Shown piece by piece: positions 47,289 through 64,000 of a stretch of DNA of 64,000 nucleotides. The notes under the pieces are model-generated. The model saw only the letters and a program-made list of their open reading frames with translations, searched no databases and had not been told where the DNA came from. The DNA is taken from positions 62,001 through 126,000 of the forward strand of contig NZ_AP024655.1 in assembly GCF_019977355.1 (NCBI RefSeq). The letters run 5' to 3'. The stretch comes from Arthrobacter sp. NicSoilB8. GTDB lineage: Bacteria; Actinomycetota; Actinomycetes; Actinomycetales; Micrococcaceae. The position numbers were made by a program, and so were the translations under genes. Position 1 is the stretch's first letter. Each line of letters starts with the position of its first letter.

Positions 47289-47628
47289 GGAAACTCTCCA
47301 ATCGGGGAACGGGTTCTGGCGGCCGGAATGGCCGGGGAAGTTTAGCGGGTGCGGGTAAGCCTCAGCCCGCTGGCGACCGAGTCCCGGTATCTGCGGTGTG
47401 CGGCGGGCCCGGGCGGTTTCGGCCCCCACAATCGAGTAGTGGGGTGAAACCATGATTCACGCCAGTGAACGACCATGGGTTTCGGTGGCGTTAATTCCGC
47501 GTTCCAATCGGGCGCCGGGGCCGTCATCCGGATTTAACAAACAGGGAGCACGTCCGTAACATCATTTTGACTACTGTGGTTCAACAAGGTTTCCCAGCAG
47601 GTAACAACGATTGAACAGGACAGTTCCG
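47289..47628. other. 340-bp divergent promoter region between amt and the GlnT/GMAS operon
   Basis: It has no coding frame of merit. It should carry both divergent promoters and nitrogen- or amine-responsive sites. TTCAAC (near 47581) and ATTGAAC (near 47610) form a loose inverted pair close to the GlnT start. No riboswitch was recognised. Confidence 0.5.
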
Positions 47629-49059: not shown

Positions 49060-49965
49060 ATGTGTGGAATAGCCGCGCTGCAGCTGCGCAACCCTTCGCT
49101 GCACCCCCAGATGGGGAGCCTCCTGTCATCCATGCTGTGCCAGATTGTGGACCGCGGGCCGGACTCTGCCGGGCTGGCCGTCTACGACACCCCGGGCCTG
49201 GTCTCCGAAGGAACCGCCACGCTCAGCCTGCTCGGCAAGGACCAGGGCCTGCCCGTCACCGACATCACGGCAGCGCTGGCTGCCCTCCTCCCGTCGGCCG
49301 CAGCAGCCGTGAAGGTGGTGGGTGACACCACGCTCGTGAGTGCCGCCGTCGGGACCGGGCTGCTCGTCAAGGCCGTCAGCGAGACGCTCCCGCAAGCCAC
49401 CATCATTGGCCGCGGCGAACACGTGGCCGTCATGAAGAGCGTCGGCCACCCCATGGAGATCGCCGCCGAGCACGGGCTGGAAGCGATGTCCGGCAGCCAG
49501 GGTCTCTCGCACACCCGCATGGCCACCGAATCCGCCGTCACCGCCGGAGGATCCCACCCCTTCTCCGTGGCGGATGACCTGTGCCTGGTGCACAACGGCT
49601 CCTTCTCCAACCACGCCACCATCCGGCGAAACCTGGTGCGTGACGGCGTCGTCTTCGACTCCGACAACGACACCGAAGTGGGCGCGCGCTACATCGCCTC
49701 CCGCCTGCAGCAGGGCGACGACCTCGAAACGGCGCTCACCAACCTCGGCAAGGTCTTCGACGGCTTCTACACCCTGGTGGTCACCACCGCCGACAGCATG
49801 GCCGTGGTCCGGGACCCGATCGCCTGCAAGCCCGCCATCATCGCCGAAACAGACGACTACGTGGCCATGGCCTCCGAATACCGCGCCCTGGCAGCCCTGC
49901 CCGGCATCGAAACAGCCCGCATCTTTGAACCGGAACCCGGAAAGGTCTACACATGGTCACTCTGA
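49060..49965 (+). CDS. Class II glutamine amidotransferase, GlxB / N-methylglutamate synthase subunit A
   Basis: 301 aa. N-terminus MCGIAALQL gives the Ntn nucleophile Cys after Met removal, followed by IVDRGPDSAGLAVYD, SHTRMATESAVTAGGSHPFS and CLVHNGSFSNHATIRR. It corresponds to the amidotransferase domain of glutamate synthase as a separate protein. In MgsABC it would hydrolyse gamma-glutamylmethylamide, passing methylamine to the FMN subunit. AAAGGA precedes the ATG. It overlaps the next gene by 13 bases. Confidence 0.88.
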   Translation: MCGIAALQLRNPSLHPQMGSLLSSMLCQIVDRGPDSAGLAVYDTPGLVSEGTATLSLLGKDQGLPVTDITAALAALLPSAAAAVKVVGDTTLVSAAVGTGLLVKAVSETLPQATIIGRGEHVAVMKSVGHPMEIAAEHGLEAMSGSQGLSHTRMATESAVTAGGSHPFSVADDLCLVHNGSFSNHATIRRNLVRDGVVFDSDNDTEVGARYIASRLQQGDDLETALTNLGKVFDGFYTLVVTTADSMAVVRDPIACKPAIIAETDDYVAMASEYRALAALPGIETARIFEPEPGKVYTWSL

Positions 49966-50714
49966 CAGCCCCCGAAACCGCCCACACCTCGACAGCCACA
50001 GCAGGCACCGCAAGCGCCGGCGCCACCTTGATTGACGGCGCCACCCTGATCGACCTGGCCGGAAGCTCCGTCCGCGACCTCAACCAGGCCCTGCACCAGG
50101 CCACCGACGGCCAGGCCTGGACCGTCAAAACCCCGGGCGGGAAACACAGCCTCGCGGTCGGGATCGACGCCGACATCGACGTGACCATTGACGGCCATGC
50201 CGGCTACTACGCCGCCGGCATGCACCAAAAAGGCGAGGTGACCATCAACGGGAACGCCGGCGTCGGGCTCGCCGAAAACATCATGTCCGGAAAAGTGCAC
50301 GTCACCGGGGACGCCTCCCAGTCGGCGGCGGCCACCGGCCACGGCGGTCTCGTGGTGATCGACGGCAACGCCGGAGCGCGCTGCGGCATCTCCATGAAGG
50401 GCGTGGACATCGTGGTCGGCGGGAACATCGGCCACATGTCAGCCTTCATGGCCCAGGCCGGCCGGCTGGTGGTCTGCGGCCATGCCGGGGAAGCCCTCGG
50501 TGACTCCATCTACGAGGCCCGGATCTACGTCAGGGGAACCGTTGCATCGCTGGGGGCGGACTGCATCGAAAAGCCCATGACCGCCGAACACCTCGACGAG
50601 CTCGCCGGCCTGCTCGCCGCAGCCGGCCGCACCGAGGACCCGGCGGATTTCCGGCGCTACGGATCGGCCCGGAACCTCTACCACTTCAGCGTCCACAACT
50701 CGACGTCGTACTAA
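49953..50714 (+). CDS. GXGXG-domain protein, GlxC / N-methylglutamate synthase subunit B
   Basis: 253 aa, the beta-helix (GXGXG) domain of glutamate synthase as a separate subunit. Repeated Gly-rich turns are seen in GEVTINGNAGVGLAENIMSG, VHVTGDASQSAAATGHGG, VDIVVGGNIGHMSAFMAQAG and RIYVRGTVASLGADCIEKP. It holds the complex together around the ammonia/methylamine tunnel. Overlap with the upstream gene and a nine-base gap to the next indicate coupled translation of the three subunits. Confidence 0.88.
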   Translation: MVTLTAPETAHTSTATAGTASAGATLIDGATLIDLAGSSVRDLNQALHQATDGQAWTVKTPGGKHSLAVGIDADIDVTIDGHAGYYAAGMHQKGEVTINGNAGVGLAENIMSGKVHVTGDASQSAAATGHGGLVVIDGNAGARCGISMKGVDIVVGGNIGHMSAFMAQAGRLVVCGHAGEALGDSIYEARIYVRGTVASLGADCIEKPMTAEHLDELAGLLAAAGRTEDPADFRRYGSARNLYHFSVHNSTSY

Positions 50715-50723
50715 GGACACTCC

Positions 50724-52097
50724 ATGACCATCACCTCACTGCCCCAGGACACGGTTTCCCCCGCCCACCTCACCCCTGCACAGCACACCGAAGAGCTGGG
50801 CCTGCGCGAATCGGCAACCTTCGACCGCGCCACCATCGCGGACATCCAGCGGGCCGCCGCCACCGGCGTCTACGACATCCGCGGCTGGGGGGCCAAGCGG
50901 AAGGTCCCGCACTTCGATGACCTGCTGTTCCTGGGGGCGTCCATGTCCCGCTACCCGCTCGAGGGCTACCGCGAAAAGTGCGACACCGACGTCATCCTCG
51001 GCGACCGCCACGCAAGCCGGCCGCTGCACCTGCAGACCCCCGTGACCATCGCCGGCATGAGCTTCGGCGCCCTGTCAGCCAACGCCAAGGAGGCCCTGGG
51101 CCGCGGCGCCAGCGAAGTGGGCACCTCCACCACCACCGGCGACGGCGGCATGACTCCCGAGGAGCGCGGCCAGTCCAAGCACCTCGTCTACCAATACCTC
51201 CCGTCCCGCTACGGGATGAACCCGGACGACCTCCGCAAGGCCGATGCGATCGAGATCGTGCTCGGCCAGGGCGCCAAGCCCGGCGGCGGCGGCATGCTGC
51301 TGGGACAGAAAATCACCGAACGCGTCGCCGGAATGCGCACCCTGCCCGTCGGTATCGACCAGCGCTCCGCCAGCCGCCACCCGGACTGGACCGGCCCCGA
51401 CGACCTCGAAATCAAGATCGGCGAACTGCGCGAAATCACCGACTGGAAAACCCCCATCTACGTCAAGATCGGCGCCTCCCGCCCCTACTACGACACCGCC
51501 CTGGCCGTGAAGGCCGGAGCCGACGTCGTCGTCGTCGACGGAATGCAAGGCGGCACCGCCGCCACGCAGCAGGTCTTCATCGAAAACGTCGGCATCCCCA
51601 CCCTGGCCGCCATCCCGCAAGCCGTCCAGGCCCTCCAGGAACTCGGCCTGCACCGGAAGGTCCAGCTCATCGTCTCCGGCGGCATCCGCACCGGCGCCGA
51701 CGTCGCCAAGGCCATGGCCCTGGGCGCCGACGCCGTCGCGATCGGCACCGCGGCGCTGATCGCCCTAGGCGACAACGATCCCCGCTACGCCGCCGAATAC
51801 GCCGCGCTCGGCTCCGCCGCGGGCTTCTACGACGACTTCCAGGACGGCCGCGACCCCGCCGGCATCACCACCCAGGACCCCGAACTGTCCTCCCGGCTCG
51901 ACCCGATCGCGGGCGGACGCCGCCTGGCCAACTATCTCCGCGTCCTGACCATGGAAGCCCAGACCATCGCCCGCGCCTGCGGCAAGTCCCACCTGCACAA
52001 CCTCGAACCCGAAGACCTCGTGGCCCTCACCATCGAAGCATCCGCCATGGCCCGCGTGCCGCTGGCCGGCACGAGCTGGATCCCGGGAGCCAAGTGA
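50724..52097 (+). CDS. FMN/FeS glutamate-synthase-like subunit, GlxD / N-methylglutamate synthase subunit C
   Basis: 457 aa. Central and FMN domains of glutamate synthase: PVTIAGMSFGALSANAKEAL, STTTGDGGMTPEERGQ, LGQGAKPGGGGMLLGQKIT, VKIGASRPYYDTALAVKAGA, VVVDGMQGGTAATQQVF and SGGIRTGADVAKAMALGADA. It would add the released (methyl)amine to 2-oxoglutarate, forming N-methylglutamate or glutamate. The TGA overlaps the ATG of the FAD oxidase gene (TGATG), placing that oxidase in the same translational unit. Confidence 0.9.
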   Translation: MTITSLPQDTVSPAHLTPAQHTEELGLRESATFDRATIADIQRAAATGVYDIRGWGAKRKVPHFDDLLFLGASMSRYPLEGYREKCDTDVILGDRHASRPLHLQTPVTIAGMSFGALSANAKEALGRGASEVGTSTTTGDGGMTPEERGQSKHLVYQYLPSRYGMNPDDLRKADAIEIVLGQGAKPGGGGMLLGQKITERVAGMRTLPVGIDQRSASRHPDWTGPDDLEIKIGELREITDWKTPIYVKIGASRPYYDTALAVKAGADVVVVDGMQGGTAATQQVFIENVGIPTLAAIPQAVQALQELGLHRKVQLIVSGGIRTGADVAKAMALGADAVAIGTAALIALGDNDPRYAAEYAALGSAAGFYDDFQDGRDPAGITTQDPELSSRLDPIAGGRRLANYLRVLTMEAQTIARACGKSHLHNLEPEDLVALTIEASAMARVPLAGTSWIPGAK

Positions 52098-53245
52098 TGA
52101 CCGAATCATCTGAATATGTCGTGGTCGGCGCAGGCCTGGCCGGCGCCGCCACGGCCTGGCAGCTGGCCTCACGCGGCCACGACGTCACGATCCTGGAACG
52201 CACCGTCCCGGCCAGCCACGACGGGAGCTCGCACGGCTCGGCCCGGATCTTCCGCTACGCCTACCCGGACGAGTTCTACACCCGGGCAGTCATCGAGTCC
52301 AAGGCCCTGTGGGACGACCTCGACCGGGCCAGCGGCCAGGCGCTGATCAGTCCCTTCGGCGCCGTGGACTACGGGCCCGATCGGCAGCCCGAGGTTCTCG
52401 CCCGGGTCCTCGCGGACGCCGGAGTGGAGCACGAACTCCTCAGCGCCGCCGACGCCAGGTCCCGCTGGCCCCAGTTCTCCTTCGACACCCCCGTCCTCTG
52501 GCACCCCGGTGCCGGAGTGATCGACGCCGAGAGTGCGGTCCACGCGATGGCCGGCCAGGCGGTGCGGCACGGCGCCCGGCTCCTGACAGGCTGGGACGTC
52601 ACCAGCGTGACAAAGACCAGCGGCGGTTACCGGCTGGCCTCTGCCGGGGGGAAGGAAATCACTGCCGGCAACGTGATCATCAGCGCCGGCGGCTGGCTGC
52701 CGCAGCTGCTGGGCCGGCTCCCGGTGCCGGCCGGGTTCCTGGCCGGCCTGCCGGAGATCACGGTCCGGCAGGAACAGGCCTACCATTTCCGCTACCGCGA
52801 GTTCTCCGGCAGTGTGGCCGCCTGGCCGACCTTCATCCACAAGAGCGCCGACATTCAGACCTACGGGCTTCCGGGCGGCCGGGACGCGGGCTTCGCCGGG
52901 CAAAAGGTGGCGGAGTACAACGGCGGAAAGTTCATTCCGTCAGCTGCCAGGCAGACCGGAATTGTGGACCCCGCCAACCGCGGCCGGGTGGTGGACTACG
53001 TGAAAAAGTACCTCCCCGGACTCGACCCCGAGCCGTACGCGGAAGCCACGTGCCTGTTCACGAACACCCCGAACGAGGATTTCCTCATCGACCGGGCAGA
53101 GGGAATCACGGTTCTCTCCCCGTGTTCGGGACACGGCGCCAAGTTCGCGCCGCTGATCGGACAGTGGGCGGCCGACCTCGCCACCGGCACCGGCGGCGTG
53201 CCCCCACGCTTCCGCCCGGCCACCGCCCGGATCGGCGCCACTTAG
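52097..53245 (+). CDS. Monomeric sarcosine oxidase-like FAD enzyme (MSOX/MTOX family)
   Basis: 382 aa, the MSOX length. Dinucleotide fold YVVVGAGLAGAATAWQLASR, SSHGSARIFRYAYPD (His/Arg residues of the flavin site), ATCLFTNTPNEDFLID with the cysteine at the position of the covalent FAD link of MSOX, and SPCSGHGAKFAPLIGQ. The family oxidises N-methyl amino acids to the amino acid, formaldehyde and H2O2. Coupled to GlxBCD, N-methylglutamate is the attractive substrate; sarcosine remains the default alternative. No signal peptide. Confidence 0.87.
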   Translation: MTESSEYVVVGAGLAGAATAWQLASRGHDVTILERTVPASHDGSSHGSARIFRYAYPDEFYTRAVIESKALWDDLDRASGQALISPFGAVDYGPDRQPEVLARVLADAGVEHELLSAADARSRWPQFSFDTPVLWHPGAGVIDAESAVHAMAGQAVRHGARLLTGWDVTSVTKTSGGYRLASAGGKEITAGNVIISAGGWLPQLLGRLPVPAGFLAGLPEITVRQEQAYHFRYREFSGSVAAWPTFIHKSADIQTYGLPGGRDAGFAGQKVAEYNGGKFIPSAARQTGIVDPANRGRVVDYVKKYLPGLDPEPYAEATCLFTNTPNEDFLIDRAEGITVLSPCSGHGAKFAPLIGQWAADLATGTGGVPPRFRPATARIGAT

Positions 53246-53337: not shown

Positions 53338-54594
53338 GTGACCACTTCGGCGACACCAACGGCAACCGCCACCGTATCCGGCCTCCTGCGGGACATCTCC
53401 GGCATCGGCCGGGACAAAACGCGCGGCGGCTACTCGCGGCCGGTCTTCTCAACGGCGGAAACCGATCTCCGTCACTGGTTCGCCGAGCAGGCTGCCCGGC
53501 GCGGGCTGGACGTCGGCACCGACCGGAACGGCATTCTTTGGGCGTGGTGGGACACGGCAACCGGCGCCCGCCGGGACGCGGTCGTGACGGGCAGCCATCT
53601 GGATTCCGTTCCGGGCGGGGGCGAGTTCGACGGGCCTCTGGGCGTAGCGTCGGCACTGATCGCCGTCGATATCCTCAAGAGCCGGGGCCTGCGCCCGCGC
53701 AGGCCGTTGGCCATCGCGGTGTTCCCGGAAGAGGAAGGCTCCCGCTTCGGTGTCGCGTGCCTGGGTTCGCGGCTGCTGACGGGAGCCATCGACGCCGACA
53801 AAGCCCGCAACCTGAAGGACCCGGACGGGAACACCTACGCCGACGTCGCCGCCGCCGGCGGACAGGACCCGCGGTTCATCGGAGCCGACCGCAAGACCCT
53901 GCAGCAGCTGGGCGTATTTGTCGAACTCCATGTCGAACAGGGAAGGGGGCTGGTGGATCTTCACCAGCCGGTTGCGATCGGGTCCTCCATCCTGGGGCAC
54001 GGGCGGTGGAAACTCTCCGTGAACGGTCAAGGCAACCATGCCGGAACCACCCTGATGGGGGACCGTAAGGATCCCATGATCGCCGCCGCGAAGATCATGA
54101 TCGGCATTCGGGACACAGCCAAGAACTATCGTGACGCCCGGGCCACGGTGGGCCGGCTCCAGCCGGTGCCGGGAGGCACCAACGTGATCGCCTCCCGGGT
54201 GGACCTGTGGATCGATCTGCGGCACCCGCGGGACGAGATCACCGCCGCCCTGGCGGAGTCCATCCACCTCAACGCCCAGGTGATCGCCGCCGAAGAAGGG
54301 TGCACAGTCAGCTTCGGCACGGAATCGCTGAGCCCCACCGTTCACTTCGACACCGGGCTGCGCAACCAGCTGCAGACGCTGCTACCCGGCGCACCGGTGC
54401 TGGACACCGGTGCCGGTCACGACGCCGGTGTTCTCACCGGACATATCCCCACCGCCATGCTGTTCGTGCGGAACCCCACCGGCATATCCCACTCGCCGGA
54501 CGAGCTCGTCGAGGACGACGACGCCGAGAAAGGCGCCGCTGCGTTGGCCGATGCCTTGGCGGGCCTGCTGGGCACAGCGCAGGTGATCGGATAG
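53338..54594 (+). CDS. M20-family amidase/hydantoinase (N-carbamoyl-amino-acid hydrolase or allantoate amidohydrolase type)
   Basis: 418 aa. Dimetal peptidase-like fold with VVTGSHLDSVPGGGEFDGPL (His/Asp ligands), FPEEEGSRFGVACLGSR (Glu-Glu), ELHVEQGRGL (His) and the C-terminal GAGHDAGVL (His), plus a lid domain carrying GNHAGTTLMGDRKDP. Family members cleave N-carbamoyl-L-amino acids, ureidoglycine/allantoate or formyl/acetyl amides. GTG 53338 is the likely start. With an MSOX-like enzyme upstream, N-carbamoylsarcosine (creatinine route) is one alternative substrate; another is an N-substituted glutamate. Confidence 0.85.
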   Translation: MTTSATPTATATVSGLLRDISGIGRDKTRGGYSRPVFSTAETDLRHWFAEQAARRGLDVGTDRNGILWAWWDTATGARRDAVVTGSHLDSVPGGGEFDGPLGVASALIAVDILKSRGLRPRRPLAIAVFPEEEGSRFGVACLGSRLLTGAIDADKARNLKDPDGNTYADVAAAGGQDPRFIGADRKTLQQLGVFVELHVEQGRGLVDLHQPVAIGSSILGHGRWKLSVNGQGNHAGTTLMGDRKDPMIAAAKIMIGIRDTAKNYRDARATVGRLQPVPGGTNVIASRVDLWIDLRHPRDEITAALAESIHLNAQVIAAEEGCTVSFGTESLSPTVHFDTGLRNQLQTLLPGAPVLDTGAGHDAGVLTGHIPTAMLFVRNPTGISHSPDELVEDDDAEKGAAALADALAGLLGTAQVIG

Positions 54595-54622: not shown

Positions 54623-55276
54623 ATGACCAACAACGCCAACCCCTTCACCGCCCAGCCCTCAGAAACCGGGGCCGGGGAAACAGGGGCCGGGCCGGCGTCG
54701 GGCACGGAAGAAGGGCCGGGCAAGCTCGAACGCATCATCGCCGGGCAGGTCCGCCGCTACCGGACCGCGAACGGTCTGTCCTCTGCGGAGCTGGCCGCAC
54801 GGACCGGCTTGTCCAAGGCGATGATCTCGAAGATTGAAACAGCCAGCACCTCCTGCTCGCTGACTACCTTGCAGCGGCTGGCAGACGGACTGAAAATCCC
54901 GGTCACGGCGCTGTTCCGCGGGGCGGACACCGACCGGGACGCCACGTTCACTAAGAACGGCCAGGGCAGCCTGACCATACGCAGCGGGACCCAGCACGGC
55001 CACGAGTACCGGGTGCTTGGCACGCTGAAGGGCCGGACCGATGCCATCGAGCCAACGCTCGTCACTCTGACGAACGCCTCGGACGTGTTTCCTTTGTTCC
55101 AGCACCCGGGCACGGAATTCATCTACATGCTCACCGGCAAGATGGTCTATGGCCACGGCGCCTACGAATACGCCATGGAGGCCGGTGACTCGCTCCTGCT
55201 TGACGGCGAAGGACCCCACGGTCCGCTCGAGCTGCTGGATCTGCCCATCCAGTTCCTGGCCATATCGGCACGATAG
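54623..55276 (+). CDS. XRE-family regulator with C-terminal cupin domain
   Basis: 217 aa. A disordered N-terminus (about 35 residues) is followed by an XRE HTH (RRYRTANGLSSAELAARTGL, SKAMISKIETASTSCSLTTL) and a cupin sensor (FPLFQHPGTEFIYMLTGKMV, YEYAMEAGDSLLLDGEGPHG). This architecture regulates amine and nitrogen catabolic operons (PuuR-like) by binding a small ligand in the cupin. It lies 28 bases after the M20 gene on the same strand, so it is probably the operon's own regulator. Confidence 0.9.
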   Translation: MTNNANPFTAQPSETGAGETGAGPASGTEEGPGKLERIIAGQVRRYRTANGLSSAELAARTGLSKAMISKIETASTSCSLTTLQRLADGLKIPVTALFRGADTDRDATFTKNGQGSLTIRSGTQHGHEYRVLGTLKGRTDAIEPTLVTLTNASDVFPLFQHPGTEFIYMLTGKMVYGHGAYEYAMEAGDSLLLDGEGPHGPLELLDLPIQFLAISAR

Positions 55277-55457: not shown

Positions 55458-56525
55458 TCAGCGTGCCGCTGTGGCGGTCTGCTCCTGGAAGGCCGGCACG
55501 ACGTGCTCGATGAAAAGTTCGAGCGAACGCTTTTTCTCTTCATGGGTCAGGCTGTTGTCGGCCCAGATGCTGAATTCGGTGACGCCGAGTGCCTCGTAGT
55601 GGCGGAGCCGCTCGATCACTTCGTCAGGCGTCCCGATCATTGCCGTGTGGTGGAGGGCCTCAGGTGTGAACTCCGGGCGGTCGGCGAACTTCTCCGCAGG
55701 GCTGGGCTCGAGGAAGCCGTTCTTCGGAGTGGTCTTGTTTCCGAACCAGGCATCGAACGTCCGGTAGAACTTCTGGATGCCCTCGGCCGGACGTCGCCAT
55801 CCGTCGGGCTCGTCTGCGGCGTGGACGTGCGTGTGGCGGAGCACCATCAGGTCCGGGCGGGGGACACCGGGGTTGTTCTCCACAGCGGTGTCGAACTTGT
55901 GCGCAAGGTCTTCGACTTCCTCGTCGCCCTTCATCAGCGGCGTCACCATCACATTGCAGCCGTTGGCAACGGCGAACTCGTGCGAGGAGATGTCGCGGGC
56001 GGCGATCCACATGGGCGGGGTCGGCTTCTGCAGAGGCTTGGGCACGCTGGTCGAGGTCGGGAACTGCCAGACCTCGCCGTCGTGGGCATAGTCGCCTTCC
56101 CAGAGCGCGCGCACGGCCGGGACGAGCTCGCGCAGGTGTTTGCCGCCATCAACTGCAGACATGCCGCCCATGAGGCGGTCGAACTCGAACTGGTAAGCAC
56201 CACGTGCCAGTCCCACCTCCATGCGGCCGTTGCTGATGACGTCCAGGAGCGCCGTCTCCCCGGCTACGCGCAGCGGGTTCCAGAAGGGCGCGATGATCGT
56301 TCCGGCACCCAGACGGATGCGCGACGTGCGCGCGGCCAAGTATGCAAGCTGGGGCATGGGGCTGGGAGAGATGGTGTACTCCATCGAGTGGTGCTCACCA
56401 ATCCAGACGGTACTGAACCCTCCGGCCTCCGCGATCAGGGCGAGCTCCGTCAGGTTCTCGAAGCATTCGCGGTGTGAGACGGTCTCGTCCCAGCGCTCCA
56501 TATGAGCGAAGAGGGAAAAGCGCAT
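55458..56525 (-). CDS. LLM-class flavin-dependent monooxygenase (luciferase-like)
   Basis: 355 aa TIM-barrel enzyme. Luciferase-family marks: MRFSLFAHMERW, FSTVWIGEHHSMEYTISPSP, TSRIRLGAGTIIAPFWNPLR, LLDVISNGRMEVGLARGAY and KPTPPMWIAARD. It uses reduced FMN from a separate reductase and O2; relatives open rings (RutA on uracil, pyridine monooxygenases) or oxidise sulfonates and amines. The facing operon encodes a flavin reductase, completing a two-component system. It is the last gene of the catabolic operon. Confidence 0.9.
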   Translation of the reverse strand: MRFSLFAHMERWDETVSHRECFENLTELALIAEAGGFSTVWIGEHHSMEYTISPSPMPQLAYLAARTSRIRLGAGTIIAPFWNPLRVAGETALLDVISNGRMEVGLARGAYQFEFDRLMGGMSAVDGGKHLRELVPAVRALWEGDYAHDGEVWQFPTSTSVPKPLQKPTPPMWIAARDISSHEFAVANGCNVMVTPLMKGDEEVEDLAHKFDTAVENNPGVPRPDLMVLRHTHVHAADEPDGWRRPAEGIQKFYRTFDAWFGNKTTPKNGFLEPSPAEKFADRPEFTPEALHHTAMIGTPDEVIERLRHYEALGVTEFSIWADNSLTHEEKKRSLELFIEHVVPAFQEQTATAAR

Positions 56526-56782
56526 TAGTGACTCCTTCGTTCGGCGGCGGTGTTTGCCGACGCCTCGTTGATGGGTGCTGCTTCCAAGGCTGCTGTGTTG
56601 CGTTCGGCGATGGTTTGGTTGCCGCGGGACCAGTGTTCATGTTCGATTTCACGGATAATTACGGTGGTGTTTTCGGGTGCCGCGCCCACTGAGCGTTCGG
56701 CGGCCAGGTGAAGCTCGCTGATGAGCGAGCGGAGCTGCTCCGGGGTCCGGCCCCGGGCGATGGAGACTTCGATAAGGGGCAA
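56525..56782 (-). CDS. 4-oxalocrotonate tautomerase-family protein
   Basis: 85 aa. N-terminal MPLIEVSIARGRTPEQLRSL gives Pro1 as catalytic base after Met removal; ENTTVIIREIEHEHWSRGN is the second strand region with the Arg and Trp that line the pocket. The C-terminal 25 residues exceed the usual 4-OT length. The family moves double bonds in unsaturated keto acids from ring cleavage, so it supports a ring-opening pathway. The stop overlaps the LLM start (TAATG). Confidence 0.87.
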   Translation of the reverse strand: MPLIEVSIARGRTPEQLRSLISELHLAAERSVGAAPENTTVIIREIEHEHWSRGNQTIAERNTAALEAAPINEASANTAAERRSH

Positions 56783-56787
56783 TGTGT

Positions 56788-58275
56788 TCAGCTCCTCATC
56801 ACGAAGGGGTCGGCAAGGGGCGACTCGTCCGTGTTGATCCAGACACTCTTGACCCTGGTGTATTCACGGATGCTCTCGATGCCGTGTTCGACTCCGACGC
56901 CGCTGGTTTTGAAGCCTTCCCGGGGTGATTGGGGCGACATGGTGCGGTAGGTGTTGACCCAGACGGTGCCGGCCTCCAGACGGCTGGCCATGCGGTGGGC
57001 CCGGGAGAGGTTGGTGGTCCAGATTCCGGCGGCCAGACCGTAGGTGGTGTCGTTCGCCAGGCGGAGCACCTCCTCCTCCGTTTCAAACGGCATGACCGCG
57101 GCGACAGGCCCGAAAATCTCCTCCCTGACCACGCGCATTGAATTGTCCACATCGGTCAGGACGGTGGGCTCGAAGAAGTAGCCATCGAGGCCGGTGTTTG
57201 GACGCCCGCCGCCGGTCAGGACGGTCGCACCTTCGGAGACGCCGAGATCGACGTAGCTGGCGACCTTGTCCCGCTGGTCCTGGAAGGCCAGCGGTCCGAG
57301 TTCGGTGGCGTCAAGGAGCGGGTCTCCGATGACGATGCTCCTGGCGCGGGTGGCGACCCGTTCGAGCAGTTCGTCGTACACGGATTTGTGCGCGAACACG
57401 CGGCTGCCTGCGATGCAGGTCTGGCCGGCCGCGGCGAAGATGCCGGCCACCACACCCATGGATGCATTGGCTATGTCGGCGTCGGCGAAGACGATGTTCG
57501 GGGATTTTCCGCCCAGTTCCAGCGTTGAGCCGATGAAGCGGGATGCGGTTGAGGAGGCAATGCGGGCGCCGGTGGCGGTGCTGCCGGTAAAGGAGATTTT
57601 GGCCAAGCGGCGGTCATCGACGAGTGCGGCCCCAGCTTCTGCGCCGAAGCCGGTGACGACATTGATGACACCGGGCGGGAATCCGGCCTCGGCGGCCAGA
57701 GCGGCCAAGCGCAGAACGGTGGCAGAGGTGTATTCGGACGGTTTGATCACAATGGTGTTGCCCGTCGCGAGGGCGGGGGCCAGCTTGCTGGTGGTCAGCG
57801 TCAGCGGCGAGTTCCATGGCGTGATGGCTCCCACGACCCCGAGGGGTTCCCGGAGTGTGTAGTTCAGCATGGCCCGGCTGGACCCCGGGATGGTGTCGCC
57901 CTGGATCTTGTCGGCAAGCCCGGCGTAGTAGTAGTAATACTCAGGCATCGCCGTCAGCTGGGCGCGCATTTCCCGAAGAAGCTTGCCGTTGTCTTCGGAT
58001 TCCATGCGGGCGAGTTCGTCCGCGTGCTCGCCCACGAGATCGCCCAGGCGCCGGAGAAGGTGCCCGCGCTTTGTCTGGCTGAGGTCCCGCCATGCGGGGT
58101 TTTCGAAGGCGGCCGCCGCGGATGACACTGCCCGCTCGACGTCGGCTTCGTTACCGCGTGCGGCCCGGTAGAGAACGTCCAGGGTGGCCGGGTTGGTGCT
58201 TTCGAAGTACTCCCCGGATGACGGGGGAACCCAGTCCCCGTTGATGAAGTGCTCGTAGCGGCGATCAGTCGACAT
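56788..58275 (-). CDS. Aldehyde dehydrogenase (NAD(P)-dependent)
   Basis: 495 aa. Standard ALDH motifs: FINGDWVPPSSGEYFESTNP, VVGAITPWNSPLTLTTSKLA, KISFTGSTATGARI, LELGGKSPNIVF (catalytic Glu), AAGQTCIAGSRVF (catalytic Cys) and EIFGPVAAVMPFETEEE. Its start overlaps the upstream hydrolase gene by 11 bases; five bases separate it from the tautomerase gene. It likely oxidises an aldehyde arising from ring cleavage; the substrate is unknown. Confidence 0.93.
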   Translation of the reverse strand: MSTDRRYEHFINGDWVPPSSGEYFESTNPATLDVLYRAARGNEADVERAVSSAAAAFENPAWRDLSQTKRGHLLRRLGDLVGEHADELARMESEDNGKLLREMRAQLTAMPEYYYYYAGLADKIQGDTIPGSSRAMLNYTLREPLGVVGAITPWNSPLTLTTSKLAPALATGNTIVIKPSEYTSATVLRLAALAAEAGFPPGVINVVTGFGAEAGAALVDDRRLAKISFTGSTATGARIASSTASRFIGSTLELGGKSPNIVFADADIANASMGVVAGIFAAAGQTCIAGSRVFAHKSVYDELLERVATRARSIVIGDPLLDATELGPLAFQDQRDKVASYVDLGVSEGATVLTGGGRPNTGLDGYFFEPTVLTDVDNSMRVVREEIFGPVAAVMPFETEEEVLRLANDTTYGLAAGIWTTNLSRAHRMASRLEAGTVWVNTYRTMSPQSPREGFKTSGVGVEHGIESIREYTRVKSVWINTDESPLADPFVMRS

Positions 58276-59014
58276 GTGAATGCTCCTTGAAGAAAGCAGT
58301 GAGGGTGTTGGCGAGCTCTTGGGGACGCTCCACCGGCATCATGTGGCGGGCCCCGCTGATGACGGAGTACGTGCAGCCGGGGACGGCCGCGGCCAGCCGG
58401 GCACTCATTTCCGGGGTCGACCCCGGGTCCAGTTCACCGGTCACGGCATGGGAGGGGACGGTGATCCGGGGGAGTTCCGGTGCTATTTCCGCATCTGCGG
58501 TTGCGAAGACGCGATAGCAGGCCAGGAAGGATCGGGGATCGTTACGAAGCAGGACTTCCCTCGTCGACTCGACCAGTTCCGCCGGAACGGGGGAGCCTTC
58601 CGGGTACCACCTGAGGATGGAGGCCTCCACCGTCGCGGGAAAGTCCGATTGCGCTGAGGCGAGGCGCATCATCACCGCAGCGTGCTCCTGCTCCGTACGG
58701 TCGCACACCGATGCGACGGAGACCAGGGAGGCAACCAGGTCGGGCCGGAACCGGGCCAGATGCTGCGCGACGAGGGCACCGAGTGAGAACCCCACCACGT
58801 GGGTGCCCGGCTCGAGGCGCTCCGCGACGTCCGCCGCGAGCCCGGCCAGGGTCACGTCTTCGGGCGCAGCCTCCCGGGTCCCGTGCCCAAGGAGTTCGAG
58901 GACCTGAATGTCGTATTCCGGTTCGAGGAATTCGCGCAGGGGCCCCCACATCGACCCGTCGAGGCCGACGCCGTGGATCAGTGCTATGCGGGCGCGGCTC
59001 ACGACGACGGTCAC
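58265..59014 (-). CDS. Alpha/beta hydrolase
   Basis: 249 aa. Oxyanion-hole strand IALIHGVGLDGSMWGPL, nucleophile elbow HVVGFSLGALVAQ (Ser), acid in AVTGELDPGSTPEM (Asp), and catalytic His in ISGARHMMPVERPQEL. Resembles RutD/3-oxoadipate enol-lactonase-like hydrolases that cleave amides, carbamates, enol-lactones or C-C bonds in catabolic operons. GTG 59014 follows directly after the upstream stop. Acts between the DUF1185 proteins and the ALDH by gene order. Confidence 0.9.
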   Translation of the reverse strand: MTVVVSRARIALIHGVGLDGSMWGPLREFLEPEYDIQVLELLGHGTREAAPEDVTLAGLAADVAERLEPGTHVVGFSLGALVAQHLARFRPDLVASLVSVASVCDRTEQEHAAVMMRLASAQSDFPATVEASILRWYPEGSPVPAELVESTREVLLRNDPRSFLACYRVFATADAEIAPELPRITVPSHAVTGELDPGSTPEMSARLAAAVPGCTYSVISGARHMMPVERPQELANTLTAFFKEHSHVD

Positions 59015-59569
59015 CTACTTCGTTTCGGTGGCGAACGCCGCGAGGCGCTGCTGCGGGCGACCCTGAGCCGCGGCGGCGAGGGCGATCACGATCTCGTCGG
59101 CGTGCGGTGCGTCATTGATCCGGACCTCGATGCTCTGGTGATGGGAGCGGATGGTCGCGTCGGTGATGTGCTTGAGCGGAATATCAAACACAACACCCGC
59201 CGGCCCGCGCTTTTCCACGGCCGGCAAAAGTGTGGTGGCATTCGCGGCGTCACGGAAATGGTTTCCGAAGGCAAGGGTGTGGATCAGGCCGGAACCATGC
59301 TCGATTTCACCGTTCAGGCCCACGATGGCAGCTTTGCCGTACGCTTCGGCGGGGGCGCCGAGGGCTTCGAGCACGCGGGGGGCGAGTAGCGCGCCGATGT
59401 CTGAGGCGTTGCCGTCGATTCCGGTGGAGAGATCCTCGACGAACCCCTTTCCGGCCCAGGGGTTTTTGATAATGGCCGCGACGACGGCGACGCGAGCGTT
59501 CGGCGTGACGTCCCGGCCGCCCTCGATGAGGATGTCTTCGGTCAGGGTAACGATTTTGCGGATGCTCAT
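59015..59569 (-). CDS. DUF1185 (amino-acid-synthesis family) protein, copy 2
   Basis: 184 aa. Shares with the next gene the pattern IRKIVxxxEDILxEGG, NPWAGKGFVEDLSTG, YGKAAIVGLNGEIEHGSGLI and HTLAFGNHFRDA. The invariant E-H in NGEIEHG and the His in LIHT could be catalytic. Structures of the family exist but I know of no established reaction. The ATG overlaps the copy-1 stop (ATGA). It is about 40% similar to copy 1 by eye, suggesting a heteromeric enzyme or two successive steps. Confidence 0.87.
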   Translation of the reverse strand: MSIRKIVTLTEDILIEGGRDVTPNARVAVVAAIIKNPWAGKGFVEDLSTGIDGNASDIGALLAPRVLEALGAPAEAYGKAAIVGLNGEIEHGSGLIHTLAFGNHFRDAANATTLLPAVEKRGPAGVVFDIPLKHITDATIRSHHQSIEVRINDAPHADEIVIALAAAAQGRPQQRLAAFATETK

Positions 59570-60174
59570 GAAATTAGTTCTCCTAGGGTGTCTGCTTTGA
59601 CGACGGGGTCGGTGAGTCGGTCCCCGATGCGCGAGTGCGGGCGGGGTCCGGTTGATGCGCCTACTACGACGACGATTTCTCCGGGCCGGGGTGCGTCGCT
59701 GATCCGCGCGGTGATGGTCTGGTAGTGCGTGCGGGTGGCGGCAGCGTTCTTGTGCCAGAGGGGCACGACGAGTGAGGCGCCGGCGTCGGCCCGGTCATCG
59801 GCGAAGCAGATGATCGATTCGCCGTCGAAATACTCCCGCACGAGGTTGCCGAAGAACGGTGTGTGGATGAGGGCCGCGCCGTGTTCAATCTCTCCGTCGG
59901 TGCCGACAATCGCCGCTTTACCGAAGGCCTGGATTGCGTCCACGCCCCCGAGTTCCTTCGTGAGCACCTCGGTGAGCCTGCGTGCCAGCACGGGGGCTAG
60001 CTGAACGACTTCCTCGTTCAGGTCATCGGTGGGCTTTCCGCCCAGCCAGGGGTTGGAGACCACGGCCGCTGCCGTGGCACGGACTGCGGGAACTGAGGGG
60101 GACAGGCCGTTCTCCAGCAGGATCTCCTCGCTGTAAAAGACGATCTTGCGGATGCCCGAGCCCTGGTCACCCAT
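59566..60174 (-). CDS. DUF1185 (amino-acid-synthesis family) protein, copy 1
   Basis: 202 aa. Pattern GIRKIVFYSEEILLENGLSP, NPWLGGKPTDDLNEE, FGKAAIVGTDGEIEHGAALI and HTPFFGNLVREYFDGESII, with a C-terminal extension not in copy 2. It is the first enzyme-like gene after the GntR gene, 66 bases downstream. The tight packing of both copies with a hydrolase, ALDH, tautomerase and LLM oxygenase suggests a catabolic role in this pathway rather than amino-acid biosynthesis, despite the family name. Confidence 0.87.
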   Translation of the reverse strand: MGDQGSGIRKIVFYSEEILLENGLSPSVPAVRATAAAVVSNPWLGGKPTDDLNEEVVQLAPVLARRLTEVLTKELGGVDAIQAFGKAAIVGTDGEIEHGAALIHTPFFGNLVREYFDGESIICFADDRADAGASLVVPLWHKNAAATRTHYQTITARISDAPRPGEIVVVVGASTGPRPHSRIGDRLTDPVVKADTLGELIS

Positions 60175-60240
60175 TAGTTGGCCCCTTAATTGGCCCCGCG
60201 TGAAAAATGGAGAAGCGCATGGCTTCCTTTCGTGGTTGGT

Positions 60241-60909
60241 TCAGTTCCGGAGCGACTGCGCCGGTTCGGTGAGGGCCTCTCGGGACGAGGCATGGACGTG
60301 GTTCCTCATGGCGGTTTCGGCGCCGAAGGGGTCTTTGTTTTCGATCATTTCGAGGACGGCGCGGTGCTCGCGGGTGGAGGCTGCGATCCTGCCCGGGTGC
60401 TCAATAGTGCGCAGGACCAGCCGGTGGTAGGCGAGTTGGTTCATGAGTCGCTCATAGTGCTCGGCAAGTTTGAGATTGTCCGAGCCCCGGACGATGGTCC
60501 AGTGAAACTCGTGTACCAGCCGGGCATAGGCCTCGCTGTCGTTCGTGAGGACGGCGGCCTCGGAGTCTTCGAGGTTCAGACGAAGGGCAGACAGCTCGGG
60601 CGTTTCGCCGCGGCGGGCGAGCAGCGATGCGGCGAGCCCCTCGAGGGACTCCTTTAGCTGGAACAGTTCGATGATCTCCCTGTGGGTCGGCTCGCGGACG
60701 AAGGTTCCCACCTTCGGCCGGATCTCCACCAGTCCCTCATTCTGAAGCTGCTTGAGTGCTTCCCTTACCGGAGTCCGGCTGACTTCGAATTCCTGGGCGA
60801 GGAAAGCCTCCGGCAGCACTGCGCCGGGAGGAAAATCACCTCCCAACACGAGCCCCCGGATTTTTTCGAGGAGGCCCTTCCGCTCGTCTGCTTCAACACT
60901 GAGCATCAT
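60241..60909 (-). CDS. GntR-family (FCD) regulator of the flavin oxygenase cluster
   Basis: About 222 aa. Winged HTH (GDFPPGAVLPEAFLAQEFEV, SRTPVREALKQLQNEGLVEI) and an FCD domain (ELFQLKESLEGLAASLLARR, VHEFHWTIVRGSDNLKLAEH, REHRAVLEMIENKDPFGAET). The frame runs to 60942, but that part consists of the tandem operator, so ATG 60909 or 60906 is preferred, with AAGAAG upstream. It heads the minus-strand operon and faces the reductase-permease operon, so it probably controls both directions and itself. Confidence 0.88.
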   Translation of the reverse strand: MMLSVEADERKGLLEKIRGLVLGGDFPPGAVLPEAFLAQEFEVSRTPVREALKQLQNEGLVEIRPKVGTFVREPTHREIIELFQLKESLEGLAASLLARRGETPELSALRLNLEDSEAAVLTNDSEAYARLVHEFHWTIVRGSDNLKLAEHYERLMNQLAYHRLVLRTIEHPGRIAASTREHRAVLEMIENKDPFGAETAMRNHVHASSREALTEPAQSLRN

Positions 60910-60911
60910 TT

Positions 60912-60950
60912 CTTCTTGCATGCATGACAGCTTATGTTGCATGCAAGAAG
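60912..60950. promoter_or_regulatory. Tandem TTGCATGCAA operators of the divergent catabolic cluster
   Basis: CTTCTTGCATGCA (60912-60924) and TGCATGCAAGAAG (60938-60950) form a perfect 13-bp inverted repeat. Each half contains the palindrome TTGCATGCAA (60937-60946 exact; 60916-60925 with one change), 21 bp apart, i.e. two helical turns. Two bound GntR dimers on the same face are expected. Confidence 0.8.
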
Positions 60951-61024
60951 AGAGTCAAGAGCCGGAGGGTGCCATTGGCAATGACCCAGAATCGCCGCTA
61001 TTTAAGGGTTTTACAAGGTTTCTG

Positions 61025-61054
61025 TTGACGCGATCATGTGACCTGCCTTACGGT
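61025..61054 (+). promoter_or_regulatory. Promoter of the reductase-permease operon, probably leaderless
   Basis: TTGACG (61025-61030), 18 nt, TACGGT (61049-61054). The start site would fall about at ATG 61062, which has no ribosome-binding site. The half-site TATGCAA (61061-61067) overlaps the start codon. Confidence 0.5.
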
Positions 61055-61061
61055 CATTGGT

Positions 61062-62000
61062 ATGCAACAGACACTTGAACCGCTGATCACGTCAGCCTGG
61101 CTCGCGGCTTGGGACAGGGGCGACTTAGATGCCCTCGACGGTCTCGTGGCGGCTGACTACACGCGCACCAGTAAGGCGACAGGCGCAACCGTCGACATCA
61201 CTGGTCTCAAAACCGAGATCGCCGCAGTGAGGGAAGCTTTCCCGGACTTGCGCACGACCATCGATGACATCGTAGAGAGTGCGGAAACGGTGGCCGTCTT
61301 CTGGACGTCCACGGGCACCCACACCCACGAATACCTCGGTGTCCCGGCAACGGGGCTTACCGTTCAGACCAGGGGCTCGAACATCCTGATCCTCAAAGAC
61401 GGGAAGATCACGAAGGAAACCGTGACGTGGGACGGCGGCGAGCTGCTGGCCGGCCTCGGGATTCGCCCGCTGCGCGGAATAGCCGCACAAGAGGTTGGAG
61501 AGGGCAACGACTTCCCGGAGCTCGACGCGGACTTGATGAAAGCGTTCAACCGCCAGTTCATCACCGGCGTCACCGTGGTCACCACCAAGGAAGGCGAAAC
61601 CCCCAAAGGACTGGCCGCGAATTCCTACTGCTCAGTCTCCGTCGAGCCACCACTCGTGCTCGTCTGTGTCCAGAAGACCTCCAGCACCTATCCGGCGCTG
61701 TTCTCCTCGAGCCACCTCGGCATCAACATCCTGGGCACGGGACAGAAGGATACAGTCCGGGTCTTCGCTTCCAAGGCCCCGGACAAGTTTGCGGAGCTCG
61801 ACTGGCACGAGGGCCCGAAAGGTAGCCCGCTCCTGGACGGCTCGGCCGCATCCCTCGAGGCTGAAATTCAGGAACGATTCCAAGCAAAGACCCATACCGT
61901 CTTTATCTGCCGGGTCCGGCACGCCGAGATCGACAACACGGCACCCATGGTCTACAAAGCCGGGCATTTCTATGACGGCGCAGACCTCACCGAACTCTAA
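61062..62000 (+). CDS. SnoaL-like domain fused to a flavin reductase
   Basis: 312 aa. The N-terminal half (about 1-130) is a SnoaL/NTF2-like alpha+beta barrel (WLAAWDRGDLDALDGLVAAD, EAFPDLRTTIDDIVES, GTHTHEYLGVPATGLTVQTR). The C-terminal half (about 150-312) is a RutF/HpaC-type flavin reductase (FNRQFITGVTVVTTKEGETP, GLAANSYCSVSVEPPLVLVC). The reductase would supply FMNH2 to the LLM enzyme encoded by the facing operon. A SnoaL domain on a reductase is unusual and could isomerise, cyclise or dehydrate a pathway intermediate. ATG 61062 appears leaderless. Confidence 0.85.
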   Translation: MQQTLEPLITSAWLAAWDRGDLDALDGLVAADYTRTSKATGATVDITGLKTEIAAVREAFPDLRTTIDDIVESAETVAVFWTSTGTHTHEYLGVPATGLTVQTRGSNILILKDGKITKETVTWDGGELLAGLGIRPLRGIAAQEVGEGNDFPELDADLMKAFNRQFITGVTVVTTKEGETPKGLAANSYCSVSVEPPLVLVCVQKTSSTYPALFSSSHLGINILGTGQKDTVRVFASKAPDKFAELDWHEGPKGSPLLDGSAASLEAEIQERFQAKTHTVFICRVRHAEIDNTAPMVYKAGHFYDGADLTEL

Positions 62001-62101
62001 GTTCCGGCGCGGCTGACCACCCTCGGACAGGAAACCAGCCGCGCCGACCCAATCTGCTCGCAAGCAGCGCACCAGGGTGCGCATCCAACTTTAGGACAAA
62101 A

Positions 62102-63532
62102 ATGAGCGAAGACACCATGCGCGCTGCCGAAAACAGTGTCGCCGAAGACCGCGGCTACCGCAACAGCCTCACCAAAATCGAGCCTTACGGCATTGAACAC
62201 ATCCCCGACGTGGAACGCCACGGCAAGCCCCGCTCGCAGTTCTTCCTCTGGTTCGCGGCAGGCATGAACTTCCCCATCGTCGTCCTCGGCTTCAGCGCCG
62301 CCTACTTCGGCCTGCCCTTCTGGGCCGCCGCCCTGGCGATTGTCCTCGCCGGCGTGACCTCCTCGGCAGGAATGGGATACCTGTCGGCCATGGGCGTCCG
62401 GCTGGGCGTCCCGCAGCAGATGCAGGGCCGAGGACCTCTCGGATTCATCGGCAACCTGTTCCCGGTCGCCTATGTGAATGTCTTCGCCGGCATTGGCTGG
62501 GCCGCCGTGACCGTCATTCTCGGCGGACAGGCCATCTCGCTGTTGACCGGCATTCCGTTCTGGCTCTCGTCGCTTATTCTCATGGGCATCCAGCTCGGCG
62601 TAGCGGTCATCGGATACAACCTGATCCACTTCCTCCAGCGCATCCTGTCCTTCGTTCTGGTGATCGGCTTCGCCTTCATCACCATCGTTGCCGCTGCCAA
62701 CGGACGCATCGTCAACGTTGTCAATGAATCCGCCCCGGGCTTTGACGGCATTGGCGGATGGATCATCTTCTTTGGATGGTTCTTCTCCTTCATCGTCGCC
62801 TGGATGCCATTCGCATCCGATTACTCCCGCTACCTCCCCAACACGCCCGGCAACAGGCGCGGTGCCAGCCAGGCCACCATGCTCGGAAACTTCATCACCC
62901 TGGTCTGGATGGGAATCCTTGGGACCCTCCTCGGATCCACCACCACCGCGTCCGACAGCATCGGCGCCCTTAAAGAGGTCATGGGACCCTGGGCCGCCGT
63001 CGGACTGGGCGTCGTCGCATTGTCTTCCTTCACCCAAAACTTTCTGAACGTCTACGGCGGCGCGATATCCATCCAGACCATGGGAGTGCCCGTCAAACGC
63101 CACACCGCCGTCGTGGTCATCTGTGTCGCCTCCTACCTCGTCGCTTTGTTCGGCCAGGAAGGGTTCAACGCAGGTTTCACCGCGTTCCTCAACCTGACCG
63201 CCTACTGCATTGCCCCGTACGTAGCGGTCCTCGTGTGCGACTACCTTTTCGGAGGACGCCGCACTGAACGAGGTCTCCGCGAACTCTTCGACAAGAGCAG
63301 GAAGTTCGAGTGGGGCTTCGTGGCCTGGGCCGCGGGCGTCGTCCTCTCATCGCCGTTCTGGATGTCCTCGATCTACACCGGTCCGATCGCAGCGGCGTTC
63401 CCCCAGATCGGAGACCTCTCCTACTATGTCGGGGCCGCCGTCGCGGTGGGTGTCTACTTCGCCACCCACCGGCGCCAGCGCCTCTCGGGACACGAAATGC
63501 TCGACCGCAGCAGCGCCGGACAGACCCTCTAA
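62102..63532 (+). CDS. NCS1-family permease (purine-cytosine permease type)
   Basis: 476 aa with twelve membrane spans. Family patterns: GIEHIPDVERHGKPRSQFFL, WFAAGMNFPIVVLGFSAAYF, IGWAAVTVILGGQAISLLTG, WMPFASDYSRYLP and LNLTAYCIAPYVAVLVCDYL. NCS1 proteins carry cytosine, uracil, hydantoins, allantoin, nicotinamide- or pyridoxine-like rings in symport with H+ or Na+. This is the strongest clue that the cluster's substrate is a small N-heterocycle. It follows the reductase gene by 101 bases. Confidence 0.92.
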   Translation: MSEDTMRAAENSVAEDRGYRNSLTKIEPYGIEHIPDVERHGKPRSQFFLWFAAGMNFPIVVLGFSAAYFGLPFWAAALAIVLAGVTSSAGMGYLSAMGVRLGVPQQMQGRGPLGFIGNLFPVAYVNVFAGIGWAAVTVILGGQAISLLTGIPFWLSSLILMGIQLGVAVIGYNLIHFLQRILSFVLVIGFAFITIVAAANGRIVNVVNESAPGFDGIGGWIIFFGWFFSFIVAWMPFASDYSRYLPNTPGNRRGASQATMLGNFITLVWMGILGTLLGSTTTASDSIGALKEVMGPWAAVGLGVVALSSFTQNFLNVYGGAISIQTMGVPVKRHTAVVVICVASYLVALFGQEGFNAGFTAFLNLTAYCIAPYVAVLVCDYLFGGRRTERGLRELFDKSRKFEWGFVAWAAGVVLSSPFWMSSIYTGPIAAAFPQIGDLSYYVGAAVAVGVYFATHRRQRLSGHEMLDRSSAGQTL

Positions 63533-63651: not shown

Positions 63652-64000
63652 ATGAGTAGCGCAACGCTGTTACGGGCAAGCGGACAGGCACATTCACCCG
63701 CACAAACCCAACCCCGTGCGGTAGTGGCTGTGGTCGTCCAGAGACACGGACGAATAGCCCTCTTCAGGCGAAGCCAGTCCGTCGGACATGACCGCGGGCG
63801 CTGGCATTGCATCACCGGCTACCTCGAGCCTGGAACCTCTCCGGAAGGGCAAGCCATCACGGAACTTCGTGAGGAAACAGGGCTTACCCAGAACGACCTA
63901 ACCGATTTCCGGCAGGGCGAACCGCTCCTGCTAACAGACCACAGGGGCAGCCCATGGCTGGTGCACACCTTCACAGCGGCTACCTCGCGACGCAAATTGA
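63652..64000 (+). CDS. Nudix hydrolase, 5' part (continues beyond window)
   Basis: The first 116 codons are present from ATG 63652, with GAGGAG six bases upstream. AVVAVVVQRHGRIALFRRSQ leads to the Nudix box GYLEPGTSPEGQAITELREE followed by TGL, matching GX5EX7REUXEEXGU with all acidic metal ligands present. It would hydrolyse a nucleoside-diphosphate-linked compound; class unknown. It follows the permease terminator, so it is a separate transcription unit. Confidence 0.88.
   Translation, partial: MSSATLLRASGQAHSPAQTQPRAVVAVVVQRHGRIALFRRSQSVGHDRGRWHCITGYLEPGTSPEGQAITELREETGLTQNDLTDFRQGEPLLLTDHRGSPWLVHTFTAATSRRKL

Follow-up and report, generated by a model that had tools for sequence, protein, structure and literature searches.

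Trigonelline (N-methylnicotinate) is a widespread plant betaine whose bacterial breakdown is established in a gammaproteobacterium. In Acinetobacter baylyi, the tgn pathway (Perchat et al. 2018) reportedly proceeds by cleavage of the ring between C5 and C6, oxidation to methylene-succinate, and hydrolysis to CO2, formate, methylamine and succinate semialdehyde, and the succinate semialdehyde dehydrogenase (SSADH) step that follows is said to be helped by TgnF. Here we analyze a 64,000-nt stretch of the Arthrobacter sp. NicSoilB8 genome (contig NZ_AP024655.1, positions 62,001 to 126,000), hereafter the window, in which a gene block at positions 55458 to 63532 is very probably an actinobacterial catabolic cluster of the trigonelline type, joined to a methylamine-assimilation operon. 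In an excerpt of PMC8269262, TgnA and TgnB are described as opening the aromatic ring, and Ruegeria pomeroyi as growing better on trigonelline than on homarine.

An earlier note on this DNA had called the genes, their families and their junctions, and Pfam searches together with the DNA itself bore out all of them. The block is composed as follows.

55458..56525, minus strand: flavin-dependent oxygenase of the luciferase-like monooxygenase (LLM) type, TgnB orthologue and predicted ring-cleaving component (PF00296; 50% reciprocal best match to the A. baylyi LLM)
56525..56782, minus strand: 4-oxalocrotonate-tautomerase (4-OT) family protein with Pro after a TTG start (PF01361)
56788..58275, minus strand: aldehyde dehydrogenase (ALDH), TgnD-like (PF00171; 45% identity to the Acinetobacter baumannii ALDH of the same cluster type)
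58265..59014, minus strand: alpha/beta hydrolase, TgnC-like (PF12697; shared catalytic residues; 11-bp overlap with the ALDH gene)
59015..59569, minus strand: AA_synth (DUF1185) protein AAS2, the second paralogue, on its own branch B2 (PF06684)
59566..60174, minus strand: AA_synth (DUF1185) protein AAS1, near TgnF-type proteins, branch B1 (PF06684)
60241..60942, minus strand: GntR/FCD regulator (PF00392 and PF07729; in 18/18 clusters)
60916..60946, no strand: probable GntR operator pair, TTGCATGCAT / TTGCATGCAA (motif counts and conservation)
61038..62000, plus strand: fusion of a SnoaL domain with a TgnA-like flavin reductase (PF07366 and PF01613)
62102..63532, plus strand: NCS1-family permease, proposed substrate importer (PF02133)
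63652..64000, plus strand: 5' part of a NUDIX gene that runs off the window end and continues in locus L048

The LLM and tautomerase genes meet at TAATG, the two DUF1185 genes overlap by ATGA, and the start of the SnoaL-reductase fusion may instead lie at 61062. Beyond the window end, the plus-strand operon in L048 comprises the NUDIX gene, a riboflavin kinase, an SSADH-like gene and an isochorismatase-family hydrolase.

Set against the A. baylyi locus, the window has counterparts of the GntR regulator, the DUF1185 protein TgnF, the hydrolase, the flavin reductase, the LLM TgnB, the ALDH and the NCS1 permease, and a candidate counterpart of SSADH lies just past its end. The A. baylyi genes are ordered GntR, AA_synth, hydrolase, reductase, LLM, ALDH, NCS1, a porin-like gene (our own reading of that gene), SSADH and a CMD-family protein, and this locus covers all window functions except the tautomerase, the SnoaL domain, the second DUF1185 protein, NUDIX and riboflavin kinase, which the window adds. 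The window also differs in gene order, in its divergently transcribed reductase and in having no visible porin, and its proteins are about 24-50% identical to those of A. baylyi or A. baumannii. Apart from these additions the match runs function by function, so the earlier note's description of the pathway as undescribed does not hold. Clusters of the Alphaproteobacteria (Thioclava, Leisingera, Ruegeria, Paracoccus) likewise share GntR, AA_synth, hydrolase, reductase, LLM and ALDH, some with BCCT carriers and SSADH. Among the papers listed in literature searches, judged by titles and abstract openings, none describes the cluster in actinobacteria.

Identification of the oxygenase as TgnB-like begins with the reciprocal best match between the window LLM and that of A. 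baylyi DSM 14961 (E 1e-122), the next best match reaching only 27% identity. Among the relatives of the A. baylyi LLM, NCBI uses the name 'flavin-dependent trigonelline monooxygenase oxygenase component' for 3 of the 120 matches listed (Acinetobacter, 91-92% identical), and among 120 relatives listed for the window LLM JGI gives that name to five (P0035, P0046, P0048, P0075 and P0119; 75-80% identical); most of the remaining names in both sets are generic or missing. A figure legend in PMC11354265 gives UniProt Q6F9F6 as TgnB, flavin-dependent trigonelline monooxygenase.

A tree of 58 of the 119 distinct LLMs extracted (a sample of the A. baylyi-type or proteobacterial-type group, clade A; the window-type group, clade B, including the truncated sequence L006 from genome G002; and 12 others) placed clade B and the A. 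baylyi type together at 99/99 against the 12 other LLMs, whose outgroup branches are long. Clade B was monophyletic at 99/99. Support for the A group is weak (70/15), and clade B may therefore nest inside it. We then compared alignment columns across 24 clade A and 18 clade B sequences, leaving out L006 and the actinobacterial sequences L137-L139 that fall outside clade B. At a 95% threshold, 109 columns are conserved in each of the two clades. Of these, 105 hold the same residue, which for 34 of them is absent from all of six other LLMs, and the four that differ between the clades are all conservative (V77I, M93L, Y115F, A127G). As a separate observation, the Caballeronia pedi locus L065 carries two trigonelline-type LLM genes and two DUF1185 genes within 17 kb, and the second of these LLMs (2632) sits on a different branch from the first.

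Eighteen clade B clusters were compared, comprising eight located through LLM matches, eight through tandem DUF1185 matches, the window and plasmid pDCT5 of Arthrobacter dokdonellae, with G002 (truncated LLM) left out. GntR, AAS1, AAS2, the hydrolase, the ALDH and the LLM are each present in 18/18, the SnoaL domain and the window-type reductase in 17/18 and the tautomerase in 16/18; in L034 the reductase has no match at the threshold used here and a weak one (32%) in another comparison. This recurrence places the gene block beyond chance. On pDCT5, which also has NUDIX and riboflavin kinase genes and a gene annotated as SSADH, the whole window block is present at 82-96% protein identity. Searching by the LLM gave nine clade B loci: eight have both DUF1185 genes and the ninth is the G002 remnant, so these loci support the DUF1185 pair independently of the clusters chosen by DUF1185. 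Of the neighborhood that the earlier note proposed to check, a DUF1185 pair with LLM and NCS1, the LLM accompanies the pair in 18/18 and NCS1 in only 4/18.

Instead, the carrier beside the reductase is of the BCCT family in 14/18 clade B clusters, with NCS1 confined to the window, pDCT5, L045 and L034. Pfam bore out the BCCT assignment for the two clusters tested (L046 and L033), and a BCCT carrier also occurs in the G025 cluster, where the LLM shares 94% identity with that of the window. For clade A we assembled 85 loci, namely the best 80 of 547 matches to the A. baumannii LLM plus five plasmid loci, with flanks of roughly 8 kb; having been chosen as its best matches, they are biased to close relatives of that LLM. 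Among them, NCS1 occurs in 23/85 (Acinetobacter, Burkholderiaceae) and BCCT in 10/85. Alternating with BCCT in both clades, and carried by tgn-type loci themselves, NCS1 was set aside as a decisive substrate clue and does not serve as the evidence for a pyrimidine or hydantoin that the earlier note saw in it. BCCT carriers suggest a betaine-like solute and, taken with the adjoining methylamine-type operon, point to an N-methylated pyridinium betaine, with trigonelline as the first candidate.

That operon lies directly upstream of the cluster, at 47.6-55.3 kb, and is of the gamma-glutamylmethylamide synthetase (GMAS)/N-methylglutamate-synthase type, with an Amt-family gene preceding it.

45999..47453, minus strand: Amt-family ammonium, possibly methylammonium, transporter (TIGR00836 above cut-off; PF00909)
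47626..49017, plus strand: GMAS-like protein (TIGR03105, 580 bits against a cut-off of 470)
49060..52097, plus strand: GlxB, GlxC and GlxD-type genes, proposed N-methylglutamate synthase MgsABC (A. baylyi homologues in the same order)
52097..53245, plus strand: monomeric sarcosine-oxidase-like flavoprotein, proposed N-methylglutamate oxidase (PF01266; matches to the sarcosine oxidases PDB 7exs and 1zov)
53353..54594, plus strand: M20 amidohydrolase of the allantoate/carbamoylase group (scores above the cut-off of an allantoate amidohydrolase equivalog)
54623..55276, plus strand: XRE-cupin-like regulator, a name of our own reading (43% identity to a relative beside GMAS in A. baylyi)

The two best PDB matches of the GMAS-like protein are 7cql ('Type III glutamate--ammonia ligase') and 9qur ('Glutamate--methylamine ligase'), at E 9e-113 and 8e-99, against 5e-55 for ordinary glutamine synthetases; 7cql is, we presume, itself a GMAS. 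A. baylyi likewise has homologues of GlxB, GlxC and GlxD after GMAS, in matching order (GlxD 84% identical); the GlxBCD-type proteins matched no named family model above its cut-off, and the XRE-cupin-like regulator had no NCBIfam match at 1e-20. An excerpt of PMC5023230 gives the N-methylglutamate pathway for methylamine as GMAS, MgsABC and MgdABCD. The window has GMAS, and GlxBCD-type genes as candidate MgsABC, in the A. baylyi order; within the operon a single sarcosine-oxidase-like gene is found instead of MgdABCD, and there is in addition the M20 amidohydrolase, which has no obvious role there.

The two gene sets keep company elsewhere. A GMAS gene lies less than 10 kb from the cluster in G000, G028, G211 and G136, the distance in G676 is 31 kb, and in A. 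baylyi GMAS-GlxBCD and an XRE-cupin-like gene are found about 10 kb beyond SSADH. On the other side of the A. baylyi cluster are SoxB/SoxA-type genes, followed by folD- and purU-type genes (L154:16190-17946), which suggests that the trigonelline genes sit in an N-methyl/C1 island. Within the taxonomic order, 17/297 genomes have GMAS, including 5/9 with the cluster (the window genome among them) against 12/288 others (p 3.6e-5, ignoring kinship); counted by genus, GMAS occurs in 4/6 with the cluster and in 7/94 overall (p 1.6e-4, ignoring kinship). Across the 37 genomes of the genus itself, seven have GMAS, four have the LLM (one truncated) and three have both (p 0.016, ignoring kinship).

Several observations weigh against a trigonelline cluster joined to methylamine assimilation. 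Half of the LLM sequence is unlike that of A. baylyi, and the added functions lack A. baylyi counterparts, so the exact substrate could differ. The reciprocal best match concerns the LLM, the one cluster protein compared in this way; the hydrolase is only about 29% identical to that of A. baumannii, and the NCS1 permeases of the window and A. baylyi, at only about 24% identity, are probably independent recruits. The best families of the SSADH-like protein in L048 are indeed SSADH, but its scores (557.8 of 646.35 and 536.7 of 828 bits) fall under the curated cut-offs, so the name leans on the pDCT5 annotation and on position; the A. baylyi SSADH passes TIGR01780 (682.6). Ten of 18 actinobacterial genomes with the LLM, among them G002 with its truncated copy, showed no GMAS at E <= 1e-90, GMAS occurs in only 3/85 clade A loci within their flanks (Fuscibacter oryzae and two loci from metagenome-assembled genomes), and the co-occurrence statistics ignore relatedness.

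Foremost among the alternatives is that the substrate is another pyridinium betaine or N-methylpyridine, such as homarine (N-methylpicolinate) or N-methylpyridone, and that the tautomerase, the SnoaL domain and the second DUF1185 protein handle a different ring-opened product. Clade B does form its own branch with extra conserved functions, and BCCT carriers and a methylamine operon would suit any N-methylpyridinium betaine. We nevertheless consider this unlikely: the doubly conserved core of the LLM is nearly identical between clades, with its four differences all conservative; each of the 11 LLM-bearing genomes of the class (E <= 1e-130) has one LLM, as expected if both clades do the same job; and an excerpt of PMC8269262 argues that TgnA/TgnB would be sterically unlikely to accept homarine.

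A second alternative holds that the GMAS operon is unrelated to the LLM cluster, its proximity being due to chance or regulation. The ten GMAS-negative actinobacterial genomes and the 82/85 clade A loci without GMAS in their flanks, at the thresholds used, are in keeping with it, but the pairing recurs in four actinobacterial genera, A. baylyi, F. oryzae and the two metagenomic loci, and GMAS is over-represented with the cluster both by genome and by genus; on balance we find a fortuitous arrangement improbable.

The earlier note's own proposal, an unmethylated small N-heterocycle (pyridine, nicotinate, pyrimidine or hydantoin), could draw on the NCS1 permease of the window, on the isochorismatase-family hydrolase after SSADH and on the PyrA-E pathway of Arthrobacter sp. 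68b, in which a two-component LLM system (PyrA) reportedly opens the ring of pyridine, a substrate without an N-methyl group, towards succinate semialdehyde, but it is very hard to sustain when BCCT replaces NCS1 in most clusters, several lineages have a methylamine-type operon next to the cluster, and the Rut pyrimidine pathway, which shares the logic of LLM with flavin reductase and an alpha/beta hydrolase, matches poorly (RutF 85 of 254.75 bits and RutD 43.6 of 238.5, both far under cut-off; of 29 families matching the LLM, the best 25 do not include RutA). The isochorismatase-family gene itself, at L048:4152-4691, has a start that overlaps the stop of the SSADH-like gene, and its product has only weak relatives in the PDB.

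We thus return to trigonelline as the most likely substrate, predicted from sequence, of what is a new actinobacterial form of a known type of pathway. Homology, gene order and co-localization, all directly observed, would be compatible with the following route, whose first and methylamine steps are drawn from protein families and whose intervening steps follow the pathway of A. baylyi ADP1. The NCS1 permease would import the pyridinium betaine. The flavin reductase domain, with riboflavin kinase beside it, would supply reduced flavin mononucleotide (FMNH2), and the LLM would cleave the pyridinium ring (C5-C6 in the tgn scheme) to an N-methylformamido hydroxybutyrolactone/aldehyde, which the ALDH would oxidize to methylene-succinate. 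The alpha/beta hydrolase would then release CO2, formate, methylamine and succinate semialdehyde; SSADH, aided by a DUF1185 protein, would yield succinate, and methylamine would pass through GMAS, MgsABC and the sarcosine-oxidase-like enzyme to glutamate and formaldehyde. Conjecturally, the tautomerase, the SnoaL domain and the second DUF1185 protein would speed a ring-chain or Z/E rearrangement of the first product. Much of the scheme in the earlier note survives here, including a two-component flavin oxygenase opening an N-heterocycle, ALDH and hydrolase steps, a single GntR regulator and the exclusion of Rut; it places hydrolysis before aldehyde oxidation, whereas in the tgn scheme the two come in the opposite order.

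Such a reading would provide a concrete gene set for trigonelline-type chemistry in soil actinobacteria, tie clusters of this type by position to methylamine recycling in unrelated phyla, and place DUF1185 in a small testable system of two paralogues, a tautomerase and a SnoaL domain.

Individual proteins add detail. The hydrolase has S77 (in G-x-S-x-G), D196 and H224 along with a TG..DP.ST..M stretch, all common to the A. baylyi and Thioclava hydrolases, and its PDB matches are esterases, a probable hydrolase and an enol-lactonase. On a Mesorhizobium plasmid (L031:7205-9004), a single fusion protein combines a hydrolase with a flavin reductase, both of this pathway type.

We know of no reaction assigned to DUF1185. 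Structures of the family have been solved, according to an excerpt of PMC2954203; in PMC7913881, TgnF is described as homologous to the DUF1185 protein HcdD and as stimulating TgnE-dependent succinate semialdehyde oxidation, a stimulation not seen when tried with HcdD. In a quick tree of 61 of 127 DUF1185 sequences, supported only by the SH-like approximate likelihood ratio test (SH-aLRT), AAS1 groups beside the tgnF type (branch B1, SH-aLRT 92) and AAS2 forms the separate branch B2; their separate branches led us to reject a recent tandem duplication. SPO0826 (PDB 2qtp) was likewise rejected as a solved TgnF, since it is a DUF1185 relative scoring only 112 bits against the Thioclava TgnF type. 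PF06684 occurs in 13/297 genomes of the order, nine of them with the tandem pair, and in 0/14 control genomes.

The second DUF1185 gene separates the two clades, being present in 18/18 clade B clusters and in 2/85 clade A loci (L065 and L127), where 81/85 have one gene and 2/85 none. No match to the tautomerase, SnoaL, NUDIX or riboflavin kinase was found in the 85 clade A loci at E <= 1e-3. Tautomerase matches that reach the start all keep a Pro right after it and a later GR pair, apart from one chance match (E 0.92). Residues D70, D76, E127, W131 and D132 are among those kept in the SnoaL domain (17 sequences). With these key residues retained, the tautomerase and the SnoaL domain both look functional.

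In the 18 clusters, SnoaL and reductase are fused in eight and separate neighbors in nine. Where separate, the matches lie 45-228 bases apart, so the fusion joins two partner functions. Such fusions are widespread in Arthrobacter-type bacteria: of the 120 listed among 502 matches, 119 combine the reductase domain with both SnoaL models, and P0168 has the reductase with one SnoaL model.

We conjecture that the tautomerase, the SnoaL domain and the second DUF1185 protein are accessory rearrangement enzymes. A bolder version, which we entertain only tentatively and judge rather doubtful, is that the actinobacterial route has enzyme steps beyond the described pathway, with the tautomerase, SnoaL and the DUF1185 pair acting on the ring-opened hydroxybutyrolactone/aldehyde, and that the clade may take another pyridinium betaine; if true, added steps of this kind would mean a first defined reaction for DUF1185 proteins. 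In locus L037 (G077:C1:4152000-4171900, at about 9057-9778), which has no LLM match, a diverged DUF1185 gene (36%) directly adjoins a 4-OT-type tautomerase, a recurrence that hints at a general DUF1185-tautomerase pairing.

At E <= 1e-60 the LLM occurs in 4/59 relatives, the G002 copy being truncated, and at E <= 1e-130 in 11/394 genomes of the class. These are the window genome, G002, six others with a clade B LLM and three small genomes in which the LLM is not of clade B. The truncated G002 copy (L047, 8839-10080) belongs to clade B; its 20-kb locus gave no match to any other cluster gene, and it is probably a remnant of cluster loss.

Finally, the GntR operator proposed in the earlier note was supported by sites matching TTGCATGCAA at 60937 and TTGCATGCAT at 60916. 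The window holds three TTGCATGCAA-like sites (at most one mismatch) against 0.93 expected, a number reached in 5/100 shuffles, and two of the three sit here; the core TGCATGCA recurs in or beside the divergent promoter region in 10/18 clusters. As the annotated GntR start lies within the operator, the true start is probably further inside, near 60909.

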